DNA of 64,000 nt from Bacteroidia bacterium (lineage in GTDB: Bacteria; Bacteroidota; Bacteroidia; Cytophagales; JAAEPT01), in contig JAUIJC010000006.1 in the NCBI GenBank assembly GCA_030431525.1, positions 1 to 64,000 on the forward strand. The letters are read 5' to 3'. This document shows positions 9,372 to 18,584 of the stretch, in pieces. The translations under genes and the position numbers were made by a program. How positions within the stretch are numbered: position 1 is the first letter of the stretch; each line of letters opens with the position of its first letter. The notes under the pieces were generated by a model, which was not told where the DNA came from, made no database searches, and worked only from the letters and a program-made list of their open reading frames with translations.

Positions 9372-10319
9372 ATGGCTTTGAAGATTGTTGTTTTGGATGC
9401 GGATACTTTGGGTGGAGTCGAATATTTTGACCGATTCAAGGAATTCGGAGAGTTGGTTGTCTATCCAGTTACCAGCCCCGATCAAACGGCTGAGCGAGTG
9501 AAGGATGCAAACATTGTTCTGACCAATAAGGTGGTGATAAACGCTAAGGTGCTTGGAAGCGCCAACTCCTTAAAGTTGATTTGTGTGCTGGCCACTGGAA
9601 CCAATAACATTGACTTTGAAGCCACAGAGCGTCATGGGGTGGTTGTAAAGAATGTCGCTGGCTACTCCACGGAAAGTGTTGCACAACACACTTTTTCTTG
9701 CTTGTTCTATCTCATTGGTCAATTGAGGTACTATGATGAGTATGTGAAAAGCGGGAAATACGCTGAAAGTCCAATTTTCACACATCTGGCTCGACCTTAC
9801 TTTGAGCTCAGTGGAAAGAAATTGGGAATTATAGGCTTGGGGAATATCGGAAAACGCGTGGCTGAGATTGCTGAGGTGTTTGGGATGGAGGTGAGTTATT
9901 GGTCAAGTTCTGATGAGGTCCGTTCCACTAAGTTTGAGAAGTTAGCGCTGGAAGAATTATTGAAAAAAAGTGATGTCGTCTCAATCCATGCACCACTGAA
10001 CGAGCGTACATACCGCCTTATTGGTGAAAAAGAGCTCCGTTTGATGAAGCCGAGTGCCATATTGCTAAATATGGGCAGGGGAGGAATTGTTGACGAAGGT
10101 GCTTTGTCGCAGGGAATTGAACAAGAAACAATTGCTGGAGCAGTTCTTGATGTGTTGGAAAATGAGCCGATTGACTCAAAAAATCCTTTGTTGTCGGTTA
10201 GCAAAAAAGAGCGTTTGTTGATAACTCCTCATGTTGCTTGGGCATCTGTGGAGGCAAGGGAGAAACTATTGGAGCTTACTGCTTGTAATATTCGAGAGAA
10301 TTTAGATGGGCTTTCTTAA
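9372..10319 (+). CDS. D-isomer-specific 2-hydroxyacid dehydrogenase (glycerate dehydrogenase-like)
   Basis: A 315-residue NAD(P)-dependent oxidoreductase. The split catalytic domain begins MALKIVVLDADTLGG. The NAD-binding glycine motif is LGIIGLGNIGKRVAEIAEV (about residues 156-174), and the catalytic residues lie in NMGRGGIVDEGAL (Arg), LENEPIDS (Glu) and ITPHVAWAS (His). The family interconverts 2-oxo and D-2-hydroxy acids such as hydroxypyruvate and glycerate. It is divergent from glgB, with 137 bases between the two start codons, and it stands just upstream of the exosortase module, which has its own promoter element. Whether it is part of the polysaccharide pathway or simply a neighbour is unclear. 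Confidence 0.88.
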   Translation: MALKIVVLDADTLGGVEYFDRFKEFGELVVYPVTSPDQTAERVKDANIVLTNKVVINAKVLGSANSLKLICVLATGTNNIDFEATERHGVVVKNVAGYSTESVAQHTFSCLFYLIGQLRYYDEYVKSGKYAESPIFTHLARPYFELSGKKLGIIGLGNIGKRVAEIAEVFGMEVSYWSSSDEVRSTKFEKLALEELLKKSDVVSIHAPLNERTYRLIGEKELRLMKPSAILLNMGRGGIVDEGALSQGIEQETIAGAVLDVLENEPIDSKNPLLSVSKKERLLITPHVAWASVEAREKLLELTACNIRENLDGLS

Positions 10320-10371: not shown

Positions 10372-12720
10372 ATGAGGTTGACGTTTTTGCATAAATGGCT
10401 CGGTTTGACTTTGGCTTCTCTGGCTATTGTAAATTCCCTTAGTGCCGCCACGGTGACTTGGACTGGAAGTGTAAGCACTGTATGGAATGTTGATGGTAAC
10501 TGGGATACTGGTTCTGTGCCTGGGCCTGACGACGATGTTGTTGTCAATGGTAATGTGACAGGGCCTCCTCTGTTTTTGCCAGCAACTGAAATAAACTTGT
10601 CTACTCCGCAGGTGATTAATTCCCTTACAATAAATAACGGGGTATTAAACTTATATGAGGGGTTGGAGGTTTCTGGTGATATAAATTTGTCAACAGGGTC
10701 TTCAGAGATTAAACTTCAGAATTTTGGTAGTGGGTTTATAGGAAGCTTGATTATTGGAGGAGAATTAAATAGTAGCGGTTCTGTTTCGTCAATTTCAGGT
10801 ACTACCATTGAATATAATGGTGATAATTCTCAGACTGTGGTGCCGTTAGGTTATTCTAATTTGACCCTTTCTGGTGCGGGTGAAAAATTGATTTCTGTCG
10901 TTTCAGGTCTTTCAGTTTCTGGGACATTCGACGGGAGTTCTTCAATCGTGAATTTTAATTCCTCAACTGCTATAAGTGTTCCTAATTTTGGTACATATGG
11001 GAGTGTGAGATTTACAGGTGGTGGAAGTAAAACTCTTCTGGAAGCACTTGTGCTTGAAGGGAGTCTTGAAATTGAAAATGGGACAGCTTTGATTGTAAAC
11101 GGTCAAAGAATCTCATTTGAGGGTTCTGGTGCCAGTGTTTTTGTAAACGGTAATTCATCTTCTTTGTCGTTGGTAGAGTTGGAAATGGCTAAATTCAGTG
11201 GCTCACTTACTCTTTCAGGTAGTTTTGAGATTCCTACAAATGGTGCTATTCTGTTTGGCTCAGGTTCAGGTAATTTTGATACAGGAGGAGATTTGTTGAT
11301 TAACGCCCAACAGGGTGCTAACGGTCGAATTGGTTCCTATTCCAACTATACAGTAACAGGGGAGGTTACCTGTGAACAGTATATTAACTCGCAAAGCAAG
11401 GTTTGGTGGCACATGGGGATGCCTGTGTCTCCAGTGTCTGTTTCTGATATTCAAGATGATTTCCCAGTTACAGGAAGTTTTTCTGGCGCTGATGAAATCG
11501 CTTTGAGTGCTAATGGTCCTTCTGTGAAGGGATATACGGAGTCTGGGATTTCTAGTACAGGTAATTTTTTGGATGGGTGGACTAATTTCCCGTCCTCGTC
11601 TAATTCTGAGACTTTTACCGTCGGGCAGGGTTATAGGGCCTTTATTCGTCAGGATACAGCCTCAGCCGATCCAGTAACGATAGATGTTACAGGACAACTT
11701 ACAAAGGAGGTTACTTATGGTCCACTAAGTAGAGGTGCTTGTTCTGAGTGTGGTTGGCATTTACTTTCCAATCCGTTTATGAGTTCAATTAGTACTTCAA
11801 AAATAAATTCTGCTTCCGAATCAGGGGTGTTTGTGTGGAATGCTACTGCGGCAGATTGGGAGTCGCCAGCTGAGATCGCTCCTTTCCAGGCATTTATGAT
11901 GGAGTCAAATGGTTCTACGACATTCACCCTTGATCAAACAGATAAGGTTGATGGGTTTGTGTCATTTATGAAACAAGCTGCTGATGAAAATGTTTTGAAG
12001 GTTGTTTTCCGATCCTCCCATTCTAACGGGGATAATGAGAAGATGGTAAAGGTAGTGGTGGATGAGTTTGCCACTTCTGGATTTGATCAAGGATTGGATT
12101 TGGGCTACCTGCCAAGAAATATGTTTGTTGTAGATTCCTTCGAGCATTACTTGGATATGGCTACCGTAATTGAGGGTGGTCGTAAATCTTTTGAAAACCA
12201 TATTCCAGTGGCTGAAGAAGAAAGGGTTCAGTTGGTTGTAGAATATGGTGACCAGAATGATTATACACTATCTGTTCTGAAGTCAAACTTCTCTGTAAGT
12301 GCTGATGTTGTTCTGGTTGATAACTTGACTGGTGAAACTATCGAGTCAGAGGGTGACGCTTTGGTTTACAATTTTAGCGTTGATAATGCTTCCCATAGAA
12401 CTGTAGATGAAGATAGGTTTGAGTTGGTGGTCACTAGCCGAATTGCTGGTAGTGAAGATGCGTTGTCATCTTCATTTGAACTTTATCCTAATCCTACTGA
12501 TGGTCAGCAATTGACTGTTCGTTCATCGAAGGTTTATGGTGATGTAGAGGTTTCCGTAGTTGATATGACTGGAAATGTTCTTTTTTCAAAGTTGATGGAA
12601 AACGACAAAAGCTCTTTTGAAGAGGTCTTGAGTTTAGAAGGTGTATTGGAGAGTGGGGTTTACTTCCTTAACTTGAAATCTCAGGGTGCTATTGAGACAA
12701 AGAAGTTTGTCGTTAAATGA
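10372..12720 (+). CDS. Large secreted protein with T9SS type A sorting domain, next to the exosortase module
   Basis: A 782-residue protein from the ATG at 10372 (MRLTFLHKWLGLTLASLAIV, signal peptide ending near SLSAA). After the signal comes a TWTGSVSTVWNVDGNW segment typical of secreted beta-helix proteins, then a long Ser/Gly/Asn-rich repetitive beta region. Residues about 450-520 contain a cysteine pair (GACSECGWHLLSNPF). The C-terminal 80 residues are a type A T9SS sorting domain (ELYPNPTDGQQLTV, then VSVVDMTGNVLFS and SGVYFLNL). It is probably exported and anchored on the cell surface. The next gene, for a PID-CTERM protein, starts 7 bases after the stop, so the two are probably co-transcribed. 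The function is unknown. Confidence 0.85.
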   Translation: MRLTFLHKWLGLTLASLAIVNSLSAATVTWTGSVSTVWNVDGNWDTGSVPGPDDDVVVNGNVTGPPLFLPATEINLSTPQVINSLTINNGVLNLYEGLEVSGDINLSTGSSEIKLQNFGSGFIGSLIIGGELNSSGSVSSISGTTIEYNGDNSQTVVPLGYSNLTLSGAGEKLISVVSGLSVSGTFDGSSSIVNFNSSTAISVPNFGTYGSVRFTGGGSKTLLEALVLEGSLEIENGTALIVNGQRISFEGSGASVFVNGNSSSLSLVELEMAKFSGSLTLSGSFEIPTNGAILFGSGSGNFDTGGDLLINAQQGANGRIGSYSNYTVTGEVTCEQYINSQSKVWWHMGMPVSPVSVSDIQDDFPVTGSFSGADEIALSANGPSVKGYTESGISSTGNFLDGWTNFPSSSNSETFTVGQGYRAFIRQDTASADPVTIDVTGQLTKEVTYGPLSRGACSECGWHLLSNPFMSSISTSKINSASESGVFVWNATAADWESPAEIAPFQAFMMESNGSTTFTLDQTDKVDGFVSFMKQAADENVLKVVFRSSHSNGDNEKMVKVVVDEFATSGFDQGLDLGYLPRNMFVVDSFEHYLDMATVIEGGRKSFENHIPVAEEERVQLVVEYGDQNDYTLSVLKSNFSVSADVVLVDNLTGETIESEGDALVYNFSVDNASHRTVDEDRFELVVTSRIAGSEDALSSSFELYPNPTDGQQLTVRSSKVYGDVEVSVVDMTGNVLFSKLMENDKSSFEEVLSLEGVLESGVYFLNLKSQGAIETKKFVVK

Positions 12721-12727
12721 TATTGAA

Positions 12728-12958
12728 ATGATTCAGAAGATGTTTCTAAAAGGAATTGTTAAGAAGGGGCTTCTTCTTACTCTTTTTTCTTGTTTTTTTG
12801 GAGTGGCATTAGCTAACCCTCCAGGTGGAGGTGATGGCTCTGGCTCTGGTTCAGGTAGTGAGCCAGATAATCCAGATGTGCCAGTTGATGGAGGTGTTTC
12901 ATTTCTTGTTGTAGCTGGAGCCGTTTACGGTGTTTCTCGCCTTAAAAGAAAAAAGTGA
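12728..12958 (+). CDS. Small protein with PID-CTERM-like sorting tail, probable exosortase substrate
   Basis: A 76-residue protein with ATG at 12728 (a second ATG at 12740 would also work). It has three parts: a signal sequence (residues 1 to about 29, LLLTLFSCFFGVALA), a Gly/Ser/Asp/Pro-rich linker (30-51), and a C-terminal tail of PVDGG (52-56), a hydrophobic helix (57-70) and RLKRKK (71-76). The tail follows the tripartite plan of PEP-CTERM signals recognised by exosortases, and the P-[IV]-D-G-G form resembles the PID-CTERM signal reported in Bacteroidota. The exosortase gene follows within 62 bases. A weak lipobox (LFSC) in the signal leaves lipidation possible. After processing only about 25 residues would remain, so it may act as a small anchor or linker. 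Confidence 0.75.
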   Translation: MIQKMFLKGIVKKGLLLTLFSCFFGVALANPPGGGDGSGSGSGSEPDNPDVPVDGGVSFLVVAGAVYGVSRLKRKK

Positions 12959-12984
12959 TTTGAGGAACTAGTTCTTTTTAAAAA

Positions 12985-13014
12985 GGCTTTCACCTTGGTG
13001 AAGGTCTTTTTTTT
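12985..13014 (+). terminator. Intrinsic terminator between the PID-CTERM gene and the exosortase gene
   Basis: GGCTTTCACC (12985-12994) pairs with GGTGAAGGTC (12997-13006), with two G-T wobbles, and is followed by eight T residues (13007-13014). The exosortase ATG is at 13021, just 6 bases beyond the T run, so no room exists for a separate promoter between them. The structure should lower exosortase expression relative to the substrate gene. Confidence 0.8.
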
Positions 13015-13020
13015 GTGCTC

Positions 13021-13551
13021 ATGGATAGAAAACAAAAGCAGTTGTTTCGCTTCCTTCTTTCGGTAGTGATGGTGTTTCTTGGTTGGATAATCATTTCCCA
13101 TCTTTTTTTGCAAGATGGAAATCCGGTGGATGATTTTCTGCGTATTTCGGAAGCGAATTGGGTGATTAGGTTGTTGGGGCTGGTTGGGTATGAGGTCTAT
13201 GTTGAGGTAGGTGGGCTTACCAAAACTGTCTTGTTTCTTGATGGAGGGGAGCGTCTGATTGGTATAGAGGATAGTTGCAATGGACTTGTTTTGCTGGTTG
13301 TTTTTGTGGGCTTTGTGTTGAGTTTTCCAAGTCGCTGGATTGATCGATTGAAGTTTATTCCGGTTGGTGTGCTGTTTATTTATGTGATGAATGTTGTTCG
13401 AATTTTTGCTTTGGCTTTGATTCAGATTCATTACCCTCAGTACCTTGATTTTAATCACCATTATACCTTTACCATTTTGGTTTATCTGGATATTTTCCTG
13501 TTGTGGATGGCATATGTTAAGAAGTATGGTAGGCAGTTGGAAGTGGTCTAA
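13021..13551 (+). CDS. xrtX: Exosortase (XrtX-like transmembrane cysteine protease/transpeptidase)
   Basis: A 176-residue polytopic membrane protein, MDRKQKQLFRFLLSVVM. The exosortase catalytic triad is visible: Cys86 in EDSCNGL, Arg127 in MNVVRIF and His146/His147 in DFNHHYTF, each at the edge of a hydrophobic helix. The length fits the compact Bacteroidota exosortases. Exosortases cleave after a short motif in C-terminal sorting signals and may transfer the protein to another molecule, often in exopolysaccharide producers. The ATG at 13021 is preferred to an upstream GTG at 13015, which overlaps the end of the terminator region. The XrtX label is from memory of the Bacteroidota subtype and needs a profile search. 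Confidence 0.85.
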   Translation: MDRKQKQLFRFLLSVVMVFLGWIIISHLFLQDGNPVDDFLRISEANWVIRLLGLVGYEVYVEVGGLTKTVLFLDGGERLIGIEDSCNGLVLLVVFVGFVLSFPSRWIDRLKFIPVGVLFIYVMNVVRIFALALIQIHYPQYLDFNHHYTFTILVYLDIFLLWMAYVKKYGRQLEVV

Positions 13552-14029
13552 GTCAAATGTTGCAAGCGTATTGAAGCTTGTTTTCAGGGTTCTTGCTTTT
13601 TTGGGATTAGCTGGGGGGTATTTATTCCTCGGTTATCATCTTCGTGATTATGTGATTGATTTTTCCGAAATGCGTTTTATCCAGCATCCAGGAGTCGTTA
13701 AGGGGGATTATGTGAATAGTGTAGGTGGGTTGTATGATGTGTTTGGTTTGCAGTCAAGATGGATGACCAATCTTGTAGTAACGGTAACTATGGTTTTGGC
13801 GGTTTCAGGGATGGTTTATCTTATTTTTTTGAAGAAAAAGCATTTTTGGATTGCGCTGGGGTTTTATTCTGGTGTAGTAATGTTGGCTTTGTTTGTTGTC
13901 GCTGTTGGAGTTGGTGTGGGTGCTTCTGAAATGGGTTATTCATTTGCAAGGGTGATCAAGGATAATCTGATACATACCCCCTTTGTGTTTATTCTCCTTG
14001 TAGCCACATTAAGGGGGTTTGAAGTCTAA
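13526..14029 (+). CDS. Exosortase-associated multi-pass membrane protein
   Basis: A 167-residue protein from ATG 13526; it overlaps the end of the exosortase gene by 26 bases, and an upstream in-frame ATG at 13514 would lengthen the overlap to 38. Four hydrophobic helices are visible (near residues 15-38, 80-100, 105-130 and 148-162), with a periplasm-exposed loop of about 45 residues between the first two. No enzymatic motif is recognisable. The translational coupling and membrane character match what NCBI families call an XrtX-associated membrane protein, though I cannot confirm this without a search. It may support exosortase assembly or present the acceptor molecule. Confidence 0.65.
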   Translation: MVGSWKWSKSNVASVLKLVFRVLAFLGLAGGYLFLGYHLRDYVIDFSEMRFIQHPGVVKGDYVNSVGGLYDVFGLQSRWMTNLVVTVTMVLAVSGMVYLIFLKKKHFWIALGFYSGVVMLALFVVAVGVGVGASEMGYSFARVIKDNLIHTPFVFILLVATLRGFEV

Positions 14030-14052: not shown

Positions 14053-14081
14053 TTGTGTTGCCTATAAAATGATTAAATTTG
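14053..14081 (+). promoter_or_regulatory. Bacteroidota promoter of the polysaccharide export and kinase genes
   Basis: TTG (14053-14055), an 18-base spacer and TAAATTTG (14074-14081) form a well-spaced -33/-7 promoter. It stands 39 bases upstream of the ATG at 14121, so the 5' leader would be about 30 bases. This is the clearest promoter in the locus and makes the export/biosynthesis genes independent of the exosortase transcript. Confidence 0.65.
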
Positions 14082-14120
14082 TCACTGAAACATTCATGCC
14101 TGGTGAACGGGTGCTTTGAG

Positions 14121-14873
14121 ATGAGGTTTGGGATAATTCTTTCTCTTTTATCGATAGTCTTCTTTTTTTCTTGTGTTCCGCACAAGAAGACGCTTTTGTT
14201 GAAATCTTCAGATGAGCAGGCTGTAGTCGCGTTGCCTTTGAAGGTTGGAGATGTTTATTATAAAGTTCAGGTAGAGGATTTGATTGATGTGAAGGTGGCT
14301 AGTCCTGATGTTGAATCAATGCAAATTTTTAATCCTGGAGGGGGTGGGGGAGGTGAGTCTTCTTTTTATCTTAATAGTTACCAGGTTGATAGAGAAGGGA
14401 ATATTCAGTTTCCTTTGTTGGGAGATATTTATGTTTTGGGTTTGACTACTACAGAGATTAAGGATTTGATTTCTGAGAAACTTGAAAGTTATTTTAAGCA
14501 GATGACTGTAGCTGTTCGGTTAGTTAGTTTTAAAGTGACTTTTCTTGGTGAGGTGAATAATCCTTCAACAATTTCATTGTATAGTGAACATACAAATTTT
14601 TTTGAAGCACTTAGTAAAGTTGGAGGGTTGAGTCAATTTGCAAATTCAAGGAGGGTTAAGATTGTTAGGAAAGATGGGGGTGAAGCAGAGGTGTATTGGG
14701 TAGATATAAGTACTCAAGATTTTCTTTCTTCGGAGTATTTTTACTTACAACCCAATGATATTGTTTATATAGAGCCTTTGAAGGCAAAAGCAGTTAGGGG
14801 TAATTTAACCTTGTGGACGTTTGTTACAGGTGCAATTACATTGACGTTATTGGTGGTAAGGACTTTTAGGTAA
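14121..14873 (+). CDS. Polysaccharide export outer-membrane lipoprotein (OPX, Wza-like)
   Basis: A 250-residue protein starting MRFGIILSLLSIVFFFSC at ATG 14121; FFSC is a lipobox with Cys18 as acylation site. A polysaccharide-export domain covers about residues 45-125 (YKVQVEDLIDVKVASPDVES, then GNIQFPLLGDIYVLGLTTTE), followed by an SLBB-like domain (VTFLGEVNNPSTISLYSEHT). A C-terminal hydrophobic segment (about residues 228-246) could cross the outer membrane. The protein would form the exit channel for the polymer. It ends 7 bases before the kinase gene. An upstream in-frame alternative start is less likely because it adds a non-signal segment. Confidence 0.9.
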   Translation: MRFGIILSLLSIVFFFSCVPHKKTLLLKSSDEQAVVALPLKVGDVYYKVQVEDLIDVKVASPDVESMQIFNPGGGGGGESSFYLNSYQVDREGNIQFPLLGDIYVLGLTTTEIKDLISEKLESYFKQMTVAVRLVSFKVTFLGEVNNPSTISLYSEHTNFFEALSKVGGLSQFANSRRVKIVRKDGGEAEVYWVDISTQDFLSSEYFYLQPNDIVYIEPLKAKAVRGNLTLWTFVTGAITLTLLVVRTFR

Positions 14874-14880
14874 TTTGGGT

Positions 14881-17286
14881 ATGGAGGAGAAAGTACAGCA
14901 GATAGATTTTAAGTTATATGCCCTTAGGTTGTTACACTATTGGTATTTGTTTTTAATAGGTGGTTGTGTGGCTTGGTATTCTTCAGGGGTGTATTTGAAG
15001 TATCAGGCCAAGGTTTATATGGCTTCTGCAAAATTGATGATTCGAAGTCAGAAAGATGCTAGCTATTTGTCAACTGTTGTGGATGATTTGGCAATGGCTA
15101 GTGGTTATAAGAATATTTCTAATGAAAAGGTCATATTGAGTTCTTATGATTTGGTCAAAAGGACATTGTTGAAGTTGCCATTTTATGTTTCGTTGTATAA
15201 GGAGGGAGATATTAAGGTAACTCCTTTTTATAAGGATGCTCCTTATGTTGTTAATGCAGATTCGTCTTTTATTATTCCTACTGGGGTTACTTTTTTTATA
15301 TCCCCTGTTAAAAATGATAAGTTTCGATTGAAAGCTACTGGTACTGTATTCAATGTGTTCTTTCCGTTAGACTCGGTTTGCGGAAGTCACTCAATTTCCA
15401 TGGATGAGATTTATTCATATGGTGAAACAATAACCGTGGGCGTGGGGAGGTTCACGGTAGATAGGAGGGTAGATAAATGGAGTCTTGGTGAAGATGAGTC
15501 TCACTATTTTCGATTTAACAGATTGGACAAACTTGTCCGTAGTTATCGTGGTAAGGTGAGTATGGATTTAAGTGATGAAGGAGGTTCTATTTTGACTCTA
15601 AGTATTCAGGAACAAAAAATTCAGAAGGGAGTAGATTACCTTAACGAGTTGATGAAACAATACCTCCTTATTGATTTGGAGGAGAAGAATATGGTTTCTG
15701 AGAATTCTATTCGATTTATAGATGAACAGCTTGCATTGTTGGGTTTAAAACAACAAGCTTTCGAGAGTGAGCTTGAGGGTTTAAGACGAGATCGTAATCT
15801 ATCAATGGATCTGGATAGAGTTTCGGAGGTGGCATATGATAAATTAATTAACTATGATAAGGAACAATCGGTGCTCCAATTTGAATTAAAGCATTATCAA
15901 AAATTGTTAGAGTATGTTGATGGCTTAAATGAGGTGGATACTGATTTAATAGCACCAAGTATTGTTGGGATTGGAGATCCTTTGCTTTCAAATCTTATTT
16001 TGGGCTTGTCATCCAAGTACGAAAAAAGGGCGTCGTTGAGATTAAGTGCGGGAGGGGATAATCCTGCTTTGAAACAATTAAATGCTGAAATTGAAGAGCT
16101 TCGTCAAACTATTCTGGCAAATCTAGAAAACATTATTTCCTCAACTAAGTTGAAGCTCTCGGATTTAAGTGTTAAGATTTCCTCTACTAATGATGTGCTT
16201 GCTAGTCTTCCAGAAGATGCTAGGGATTTGGTTAATGTACAGCGTAAATTAGATTTGAATAATCATCTATACAATTATTTACTTGAGAAGAGGGCCTCGG
16301 CAGGAATTGCTAAATCATTGAATTCACCAGACAATAAGATAATTGATAAGGCGAGAATAAAATCGTTTTCACCAGTGAAGCCTGATGTGAGGCGAATTCA
16401 TCTATCTTTTATGCTTCCTGGACTTTTAATTCCATTGCTATTTGTTTTTTTGAAGGAGTTTATGGATATGAAAGTGTTTAGTAAAGAGCAGCTTGAAGGG
16501 CGTTTGGATGTTCCTCTTCTTGGATTCGTGGGTCATTACTCAGGGAAGAACGAGATGCCATTGGTAGAATCCCCAAAGTCAGCTATTGCAGAGTCTTTTA
16601 GGTCTCTTAGAGCAAATATTAAATACCTGAATGCGGATTTTGATAATAGGGTAGTGGGTTTTACTTCTTCTATTAGTGGAGAAGGAAAGACATTTTGTTC
16701 TATGAATTTTGCAATTTCATTATCTATGACGGGGGCTAAAGTGTTATTGCTTGGTGCTGACATGAGAAAACCCCGTTTGGGTAAAGAATTGGGGTTGGAT
16801 ATGGATAATGGTTTAAGTTCAGTTTTGGCTAAAATTAAAAGTCTTGAAGAAGTTCTTCAAGTTATCCCTGAAGTGAAAAACCTGTCTGTTGTTACTTCAG
16901 GTAATGTGCCTCCTAATCCTGGTGAACTTTTAGGTTCTTCTCGAATGAGGAAGTTAATGGAAGAGGCTAAGACGAAGTTTGATTATATAGTTGTAGACAC
17001 ACCTCCAGTTGGGTTGGTTTCTGATTATTATCAGATTGATGCCCTTATTGATGTAACATTGTACATTGTTCGCAATGGTTATACAAAGGTCAAGTCCCTT
17101 GAGGTTGTAGAAGATTTTTCTGAGAGAAAGGGGAATACAGGAGTGCTTATGGTTCTTAATGATTTTAAGACTACTTCATACGGCTACGGCTACGGCTACG
17201 GCTATGGTTATGGCTACGGCCAGGGCTATTATGAGGATGATAAGAAGGATTCAAGTTTTGTTAAAAGACTTTTAGGAAAAGCATAA
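14881..17286 (+). CDS. Tyrosine-protein kinase / polysaccharide co-polymerase (Wzc-like)
   Basis: An 801-residue protein fused from a chain-length domain and a BY-kinase. An N-terminal transmembrane helix (about residues 20-40) is followed by a periplasmic region with a coiled coil (about 250-480), a second helix near residue 510 and a cytosolic ATPase. Walker A is SSISGEGKT, Walker A' is KVLLLGADMRKPR and Walker B is IVVDTPP. The C-terminal tyrosine cluster has YG repeats, normally the site of autophosphorylation that controls polymer length. The gene uses ATG 14881 rather than a TTG six bases earlier. Its stop overlaps the start of tviB (TAATG). Confidence 0.94.
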   Translation: MEEKVQQIDFKLYALRLLHYWYLFLIGGCVAWYSSGVYLKYQAKVYMASAKLMIRSQKDASYLSTVVDDLAMASGYKNISNEKVILSSYDLVKRTLLKLPFYVSLYKEGDIKVTPFYKDAPYVVNADSSFIIPTGVTFFISPVKNDKFRLKATGTVFNVFFPLDSVCGSHSISMDEIYSYGETITVGVGRFTVDRRVDKWSLGEDESHYFRFNRLDKLVRSYRGKVSMDLSDEGGSILTLSIQEQKIQKGVDYLNELMKQYLLIDLEEKNMVSENSIRFIDEQLALLGLKQQAFESELEGLRRDRNLSMDLDRVSEVAYDKLINYDKEQSVLQFELKHYQKLLEYVDGLNEVDTDLIAPSIVGIGDPLLSNLILGLSSKYEKRASLRLSAGGDNPALKQLNAEIEELRQTILANLENIISSTKLKLSDLSVKISSTNDVLASLPEDARDLVNVQRKLDLNNHLYNYLLEKRASAGIAKSLNSPDNKIIDKARIKSFSPVKPDVRRIHLSFMLPGLLIPLLFVFLKEFMDMKVFSKEQLEGRLDVPLLGFVGHYSGKNEMPLVESPKSAIAESFRSLRANIKYLNADFDNRVVGFTSSISGEGKTFCSMNFAISLSMTGAKVLLLGADMRKPRLGKELGLDMDNGLSSVLAKIKSLEEVLQVIPEVKNLSVVTSGNVPPNPGELLGSSRMRKLMEEAKTKFDYIVVDTPPVGLVSDYYQIDALIDVTLYIVRNGYTKVKSLEVVEDFSERKGNTGVLMVLNDFKTTSYGYGYGYGYGYGYGQGYYEDDKKDSSFVKRLLGKA
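17179..17220 (+). repeat. In-frame 6-bp tandem repeat encoding the YG tail of the kinase
   Basis: Seven consecutive 6-base units (mostly TACGGC, with TATGGT and TATGGC variants) encode Tyr-Gly pairs. Each unit is six bases, so slippage would change the number of tyrosines without shifting the frame. Confidence 0.9.
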
Positions 17287-18584
17287 TGTCTGAGATTAAA
17301 GTTGCGGTTATTGGCTTGGGGTATGTAGGTCTGCCACTTGCTGTAGAGTTTGGAAAGAAGTACTCTACGATTGGGTTTGATATTAATGTACAGCGTGTTA
17401 ATGAGCTGAATAATGCTATTGATCATACCTTAGAGGTTGATGAAGAAGGGTTAAAGGAATCTTTAGTTGAATTTTGCCCTGAGCTTGTTGCTAAAGGAAA
17501 AGGGTTGAAATGTACATCATCTGCTGATGATTTAAGTGATGCGAATTTCTTCATTGTGACAGTTCCAACACCTACTGATAAATACAATCGTCCAGTTTTA
17601 ACGCCGCTTTATAAGGCTTCGGAAACTGTAGGTAAGGTGTTAAAGAAGGGTGATATAGTTGTCTATGAGTCAACAGTCTATCCAGGGGTGACTGAAGATG
17701 AGTGTGTTCCTGTGCTAGAGAAAGTTTCAGGTCTCAAGTTTAATGAGGATTTCTTTTGTGGTTATTCTCCCGAGAGAATTAATCCCGGAGATAAAGAACA
17801 TACGGTAACAAAAATTCTCAAAGTTACATCTGGTTCAACACCAGAAGTAGGGAGAAAGGTAGATGACGTTTATCGCTCTGTAATTACGGCAGGCACCCAT
17901 TTGGCTCCATCAATGAAGGTTGCGGAAGCTGCAAAAGTGATTGAAAATTCACAGAGGGATATCAATATTGCTTTTGTGAATGAGTTATCTAAGATTTTTG
18001 GGTTGCTTGAAATTGATACCTTAGAGGTTCTTGAGGCTGCAGGAACAAAATGGAATTTCCTGCCCTTCCGTCCAGGCTTAGTAGGTGGTCACTGTATTGG
18101 TGTGGATCCCTTTTATTTAGCTCAAAAGGCACAAGAAGTAGGTTACAATCCTGAAATTATTTTGTCTGGTCGCCGTCTGAATGATGGAATGGGTAAATAC
18201 GTTGCTGATCAGGTTGTAAAGCGAATGATTGCAAATGACTTGAAGGTGAAAGATTCTCGTGTATTGATGTTAGGTATAACATTTAAGGAGAATTGCCCTG
18301 ATATTCGCAATACACGAGCGATAGACATCATTGGAGAACTTGAAGAGTTTGGTGTAAAGGTCGATACTTACGATCCTTGGGCCGATAATGGAGAGGTCAG
18401 GGCTGAGTTTGGGATTGAGTTGGTTGATAAGCCAGTTGTTAATGGTTATGACGCAGTTGTATTAGCTGTGGCACATAAGGAGTTCTTGGAATCTGATGTT
18501 GATGGATATAAGTCTTCAGATAGTTCTGTGGTATTTGATGTGAAGGGTATCCTTCCAAAGGAGAAAATTACTGCTAGGCTCTAA
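17286..18584 (+). CDS. tviB: UDP-N-acetylglucosamine 6-dehydrogenase (TviB-like)
   Basis: A 432-residue nucleotide-sugar dehydrogenase. The Rossmann motif is VAVIGLGYVGLPLAVEFGKK at the N-terminus; the catalytic cysteine lies in GGHCIGVDPFYL (about residue 262), and YSPERINPGDKEHT and NTRAIDIIGEL are also visible. The N-terminal and central sequences recall Salmonella TviB, which oxidises UDP-GlcNAc to UDP-GlcNAcA. The product can be used by the next gene (TviC-like) and by the WbpB-like gene at the end of the locus. The start codon overlaps the kinase stop by one base. Confidence 0.9.
   Translation: MSEIKVAVIGLGYVGLPLAVEFGKKYSTIGFDINVQRVNELNNAIDHTLEVDEEGLKESLVEFCPELVAKGKGLKCTSSADDLSDANFFIVTVPTPTDKYNRPVLTPLYKASETVGKVLKKGDIVVYESTVYPGVTEDECVPVLEKVSGLKFNEDFFCGYSPERINPGDKEHTVTKILKVTSGSTPEVGRKVDDVYRSVITAGTHLAPSMKVAEAAKVIENSQRDINIAFVNELSKIFGLLEIDTLEVLEAAGTKWNFLPFRPGLVGGHCIGVDPFYLAQKAQEVGYNPEIILSGRRLNDGMGKYVADQVVKRMIANDLKVKDSRVLMLGITFKENCPDIRNTRAIDIIGELEEFGVKVDTYDPWADNGEVRAEFGIELVDKPVVNGYDAVVLAVAHKEFLESDVDGYKSSDSSVVFDVKGILPKEKITARL

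Follow-up and report, generated by a model that had tools for sequence, protein, structure and literature searches.

The question raised by three consecutive genes at positions 12,728 to 14,029 of the window (the whole 64,000-nucleotide stretch of Bacteroidia DNA analysed here) is what an exosortase accompanied by so small a substrate might be sorting, and for what. An earlier note, made from the sequence alone, had recognised a PID-CTERM-like substrate, an exosortase and a membrane partner side by side, and had proposed that the substrate, which it took to be unusually short, was a linker or peptide primer serving the adjacent polymer locus. The gene assignments were correct: all three open reading frames are present (Table 1), and NCBIfam has models for precisely these three. 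The proposed role fared less well, and a different partner for the peptide emerged.

Identity of the three genes

The trio is of a kind already named in NCBIfam (NF046080, NF046081 and NF046082), and of its members the peptide alone exceeds its own NCBIfam cut-off. By translation, the 76-residue precursor consists of a signal peptide, a mature segment of about 22 residues and a PVDGG-helix-RLKRKK tail. It passes the PID_CTERM cut-off over residues 51-75 of 76, the model requiring a 25-residue C-terminal P-[VI]-D-G-G motif, helix and basic tail at more than 26 bits. The predicted mature peptide, NPPGGGDGSGSGSGSEPDNPDV, is rich in Gly, Ser and Pro, and its 22-24 or so residues agree with the roughly 25 that the earlier note had expected to remain after removal of signal and tail.

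The enzyme carries the general exosortase/archaeosortase signature (TIGR04178, 57.1 bits against a cut-off of 23; PF09721, 27.6 against 25.7), about four strongly hydrophobic segments and the active-site Cys, Arg and His of exosortase X. Cys86, Arg127 and His146 are each conserved without exception in an alignment of 60 enzymes; the first two had been named correctly, and the third had been placed at His147, the adjacent residue. Against the exosortase X model itself the enzyme reached 165.5 bits, slightly under the curated cut-off of 170 and so outside formal membership. Assignment to the PID-CTERM and exosortase families was thereby upheld by PID_CTERM and TIGR04178 and fell just short for NF046081. 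Several relatives with a PID-CTERM gene directly upstream of the enzyme also scored below 170 bits (e.g., G064, G281 and G133). The XrtF model TIGR04128 gave 84.0 bits (cut-off 90), half the XrtX score, and a search of PDB sequences gave no useful match. Cleavage by the enzyme and transfer to an acceptor would correspond to its predicted transpeptidase activity.

The third open reading frame overlaps that of the exosortase and has a likely ATG at 13514. Its product matched the model for the XrtX-associated membrane protein weakly, far enough below the cut-off of 75 bits to lie outside membership, and matched a profile of the genes found at the same place elsewhere with 32.8 bits (E = 5.6e-8), the position being conserved. 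The gene is thus divergent and placed where the XrtX-associated membrane protein belongs.

Table 1. Features of the trio and its neighbours, with positions in the window.
Feature	Position	Strand	Evidence
T9SS type A surface protein, RemA/RemZ-like adhesin by sequence	10372..12720	+	TIGR04183 48.6 bits, residues 726-804
370-aa module common to PID-paired T9SS proteins and RemA/RemZ	11353..12474	+	Alignment, genome searches, PDB sequence matches
T9SS type A sorting tail	12481..12717	+	TIGR04183
PID-CTERM peptide precursor, 76 aa	12728..12958	+	NF046080 43.3 bits; translation
Intrinsic terminator in the gap between peptide and exosortase genes	12980..13011	+	14-pair stem and T run
XrtX-type exosortase, 176 aa; Cys86, Arg127, His146	13021..13551	+	NF046081, TIGR04178, PF09721, invariant residues
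Membrane protein at the XrtX-associated position	13514..14029 (ORF from 13445)	+	NF046082 22.8 bits; neighbour profile
OPX (Wza-type) polysaccharide export protein	14079..14873	+	PF02563, SLBB domains
BY-kinase / Wzc-type chain-length protein	14875..17286	+	TIGR01007 142.2 bits, cut-off 108
Nucleotide-sugar dehydrogenase of the polysaccharide locus	17286..18584	+	TIGR03026 382 bits

Size and number of the cargo

Short cargo is the rule in the PID-CTERM family and not the exception. Of the 295 genomes of the class, 132 have a PID_CTERM match, in most cases a single one, and the open frames concerned are mostly 60-100 residues long; the idea that the peptide is peculiar to this genome was rejected on this ground. 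Across 119 non-redundant, readable related PID-CTERM genes, the mature segment (taken as the stretch from a crude signal-peptidase site to the PID motif) has a median length of about 24 residues. The window peptide has this same length, and the substrate can therefore no longer be called unusually short. A Cys pair, often CWPPPC, lies right before the PID motif in about half of the peptides and is absent from the window peptide.

A PID-CTERM gene is found beside the enzyme in the window and at 52 of the 80 loci found by the enzyme alone. The system had also been described as having one substrate only, which was not the case: a second strong PID-CTERM gene lies on contig 25 of the source genome, making two in total. 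Genomes hold one to five PID-CTERM genes, nearly all encoding tiny proteins, and hence no broad set of cargo. A 973-residue protein of genome G188 (L044:9115-12036) was rejected as long PID-CTERM cargo, because it belongs to another system, as an MSEP-CTERM protein (742.9 bits), and its tail reaches 28.9 bits against the PID_CTERM cut-off of 26 through a cross-match of sorting tails. The notion that the source genome has a single exosortase was likewise wrong, XrtN (301 bits, cut-off 200) being encoded on contig 22 together with a VIT-domain protein that bears a PEP-like tail (L224:4243-5616 and 465-2426).

Pairing with T9SS adhesin genes

The last gene before the peptide gene ends 7 bp upstream of it. 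Its open reading frame begins at 10306 and spans 804 residues, with a likely start Met at 10372 as judged from the sequence, and its product carries a T9SS type A sorting tail well above the TIGR04183 cut-off of 23. This arrangement recurs widely. When the neighbours of 72 PID-CTERM genes were read, most of these genes proved to lie a few dozen bases or less downstream of a large, co-oriented gene with a T9SS type A tail. Over two surveys a gene of this type was directly upstream of 66 of the 119 PID-CTERM genes, against 93 of 2047 genes (4.5%) in a control set that contains some near neighbours of the pair. The gaps range from -34 to 232 bp with a median of about 40.

The TIGR04183 tail was detected in 33 of 35 large proteins picked upstream of PID-CTERM genes. 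The head domains of the 35 vary according to Pfam and NCBIfam, with ice-binding, PKD, G8, FG-GAP, SprB and Kelch types, and alignment revealed that the proteins have in common a module of about 370 residues ahead of the tail. No Pfam or NCBIfam model covers this module. A profile of it, searched against PDB sequences, retrieved the Flavobacterium johnsoniae adhesins RemZ (1e-35) and RemA (1.7e-35), to which the module is homologous; the window module sequence alone gave no match there. By the presence of this module ahead of its tail, the upstream gene is classed as a putative RemA/RemZ-like adhesin gene. No informative match in fold was obtained with the structure model of the module, which was mediocre (pLDDT 73.6), and a fold search with a module-plus-tail model of moderate quality returned a good match for the DUF3244-like tail alone.

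The source genome (4.2 Mb) encodes 128 T9SS type A tails. The module occurs in two proteins only, and both strong PID-CTERM genes of the genome lie directly 3' of the T9SS type A genes that encode them; a further module match, on contig 61, is a fragment at the contig end and supplies what the truncated copy on contig 25 lacks. Within the surveyed loci, a PID-CTERM gene comes next after 64 of 90 module proteins, compared with 6 of 98 T9SS proteins without the module, most of these six being short open reading frames that are probably truncated; this contrast is partly circular, since proteins encoded beside PID-CTERM genes served to build the module model, a concern that applies less to the counts within the source genome and across the class. 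The pairing is not one to one, as modules outnumber peptides in several genomes, by 11 to 1 in one. In a complete listing of 33 genomes, a module gene stands before 25 of 37 PID-CTERM genes, and a PID-CTERM gene stands after 25 of 77 module matches.

Among the PID-module pairs of both surveys, peptides with two Cys residues go with modules bearing a CxxLxD motif in 25 of 32 cases and peptides without the Cys pair in 0 of 29, a pattern confounded by lineage. A disulfide between peptide and module was not relied on, because this match tracks lineage and bonds may form among the module cysteines themselves.

The signals for transcription were also informative. The hairpin between the peptide and exosortase genes has a predicted stability of -15.4 kcal/mol (z -4.4), which none of 200 shuffled sequences reached, and among relatives terminator-like hairpins occupy 3 of 66 gaps between T9SS and PID-CTERM genes against 24 of 93 gaps between PID-CTERM and XrtX genes. 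From these counts, the 7-base gap to the adhesin gene and the terminator before XrtX, it follows that the peptide belongs first with the adhesin.

A different tiny peptide was encountered in one flavobacterial genus, in which a secreted protein of about 51-71 residues ending in SPEPPGGGF or similar is encoded directly after module T9SS genes (L200, L206, L208, L215 and L217-L223). It has no exosortase tail, and six copies are present in one genome without detected XrtX, at least five of them beside module genes. Searches of NCBIfam and Pfam gave no NCBIfam match and no convincing Pfam family. This one genus suggests that the tiny peptide, and not the exosortase, is the constant need.

Tight T9SS-PID operons with few terminators, and a tailless peptide placed after the same adhesins in that genus, would be expected if the peptide aided the export or anchoring of its paired T9SS protein, either as an escort or as an amine acceptor for the T9SS sortase, with no involvement of polysaccharide. 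We nevertheless hold this to be quite unlikely. In the source genome 126 of the 128 type A tails do without such a peptide, which is therefore not a general need of T9SS, and the frequent exopolysaccharide (EPS) loci nearby would be left unexplained.

Polysaccharide neighbours

OPX and BY-kinase genes adjoin the trio, as the earlier note had stated, followed by a nucleotide-sugar dehydrogenase gene (Table 1). In the first survey a BY-kinase gene lay within the fetched flank at 36 of 59 XrtX loci, and in the named-genome set found by the enzyme alone, which is rich in Hymenobacter, at just 15 of 80. For the second PID-CTERM gene of the source genome, no polysaccharide locus was seen in the contig-end stretch read; its 1220-residue neighbour, recognised by eye, is presumably PurL.

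A link between the trio and polysaccharide is thus plausible, and this part of the original proposal stands. The more specific role, with the peptide as linker or primer of the adjacent locus's polymer, XrtX joining the two and the T9SS gene incidental, appears unlikely. The adjoining OPX and BY-kinase genes would suit it, as would a report that PEP-CTERM proteins stabilise contact between EPS and cell in other bacteria (PMC12188702). Against it stand the second PID-CTERM gene away from any such locus in the stretch read, the low BY-kinase count in the named-genome set and the terminator between the peptide and XrtX genes. It is moreover with the T9SS adhesin gene that the peptide gene is most tightly paired, and a primer role accounts neither for this pairing nor for the co-occurrence with the module described below. 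In our reading the peptide is probably tied to exopolysaccharide and is unlikely to be a primer for the neighbouring polymer alone.

Co-occurrence of XrtX and the module

The 295 genomes of the class comprise 153 with both XrtX and the module, five with XrtX only, 31 with the module only and 106 with neither (p ~1e-44); the module is present in 153 of 158 XrtX genomes and in 31 of 137 without XrtX. At a looser threshold, a weaker exosortase match appeared in 11 of the 31 module-only genomes compared with 1 of 49 genomes without the module, leaving module adhesins without detectable XrtX in about 20 of 184 genomes. Stratification by family, which reduces the effect of kinship and is not a full phylogenetic test, gave a Mantel-Haenszel odds ratio of 14.8 (p 2e-6) over the 18 families with both states. 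Among the families with a single state, the module was found in 25 of 26 that are all exosortase-positive and in 5 of 21 that are all negative.

These figures also bear on whether XrtX may be a general sorting enzyme, its adjacency to T9SS genes reflecting gene order alone and no shared function. About 45% of PID-CTERM genes have no T9SS gene directly upstream, and some genomes encode module proteins without detectable XrtX, both of which would be in keeping with such a role. The association is, however, far above controls, is confined to one class of adhesin and holds within families, and the few, tiny PID-CTERM proteins of each genome do not resemble general cargo. We therefore regard a general sorting role as very unlikely.

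Proposed mechanism

Exosortases act on the outer face of the inner membrane, where they cleave C-terminal tails, and T9SS carries adhesins across the outer membrane. We consider it reasonably likely that the two meet here, the peptide being the partner of a T9SS-secreted RemA-like adhesin, matured by XrtX, carried to a glycan or glycolipid and engaging the 370-residue module. The adhesin encoded at 10372-12720 would be exported by the type 9 system via its type A tail, and the peptide would be exported by Sec, with its PID-CTERM tail holding it in the inner membrane. Cutting at the PVDGG motif, XrtX would then release the Gly/Ser/Pro peptide of about 22 residues onto a carrier or transfer it there, the likeliest carrier being a glycan or glycolipid that belongs to the neighbouring polysaccharide pathway. 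The peptide, by itself or attached to the polymer, may engage the module of the adhesin at the surface, and adhesin and matrix would therefore be joined. We infer the processing, the acceptor, the route across the outer membrane and the contact between peptide and module.

Overall, the results suggest joint action of the processed peptide with the module adhesin, in which two known export machines would serve one surface-attachment device. Published data fit such joint action. Overexpression of RemA is reported to lead to cell aggregation through a galactose-containing EPS (PMC8481357), and F. johnsoniae deleted for xrtF or its partner loses biofilm, as do sprA, porV and porU deletions (PMC10936215). 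More tentatively, and with some doubt, it may be that XrtX, perhaps also XrtF, mainly makes a short peptide ligand for RemA-like T9SS adhesins, that two unrelated machines for export and sorting cooperate in this way to join surface adhesins to the matrix, and that a tiny exosortase-free peptide can take the place of this ligand in some lineages.

Comparison with known systems

The XrtX/PID-CTERM/XrtX-associated trio described by NCBIfam has the same three genes in the same order as the window, with a PID-CTERM score over the cut-off, the catalytic Cys, Arg and His and a tiny cargo; the window differs in that its enzyme lies slightly under the cut-off and its partner well under. The trio is therefore of a kind already known. 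The open-access papers searched contain no description of its pairing with a RemA-like T9SS adhesin, no mention of PID-CTERM and no use of XrtX for an exosortase; the pairing seems to be undescribed as far as these papers reach, which does not establish that it is new. The pairing links two secretion and sorting systems usually studied apart. For the exosortases of Bacteroidota, whose substrates and purpose are at issue, it names a concrete partner, and the question of their purpose therefore becomes testable in strains with genetics.

The XrtF system of F. johnsoniae (TIGR04128) resembles the window in its short exosortase and adjacent membrane partner (the Exosortase F system-associated protein), both of which are needed for biofilm formation and surface colonisation (PMC10936215). 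The window enzyme falls below the cut-off of its model, and the substrates of XrtF have been stated to be unknown (PMC12188702). Among the short open reading frames downstream of module adhesins in XrtF-type flavobacteria, mostly no PID-like gene was found, with one variant ending in APIHFLIPLAIAAGVALGIRKLK. This variant tail belongs to a 63-residue protein encoded 25 bp after a module T9SS gene (L197, genome G165), in a genome with only a low-scoring exosortase match to XrtX. RemA and RemZ, gliding adhesins of F. johnsoniae, share with the window adhesin the 370-residue module before a T9SS type A tail, and differ in their head domains.

The PEP-CTERM/XrtA (EpsH) exopolysaccharide system is alike in its exosortase, its C-terminal sorting tail and its frequent EPS locus, and is known for long and numerous cargo. 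The cyanoexosortase system of Nostoc punctiforme has 35 PEP-CTERM proteins (PMC12188702). In contrast to PEP-CTERM/XrtA, the cargo here is a handful of tiny peptides per genome paired with T9SS adhesins, and this small size has a possible reason, in that the cargo may be a ligand and not an enzyme.
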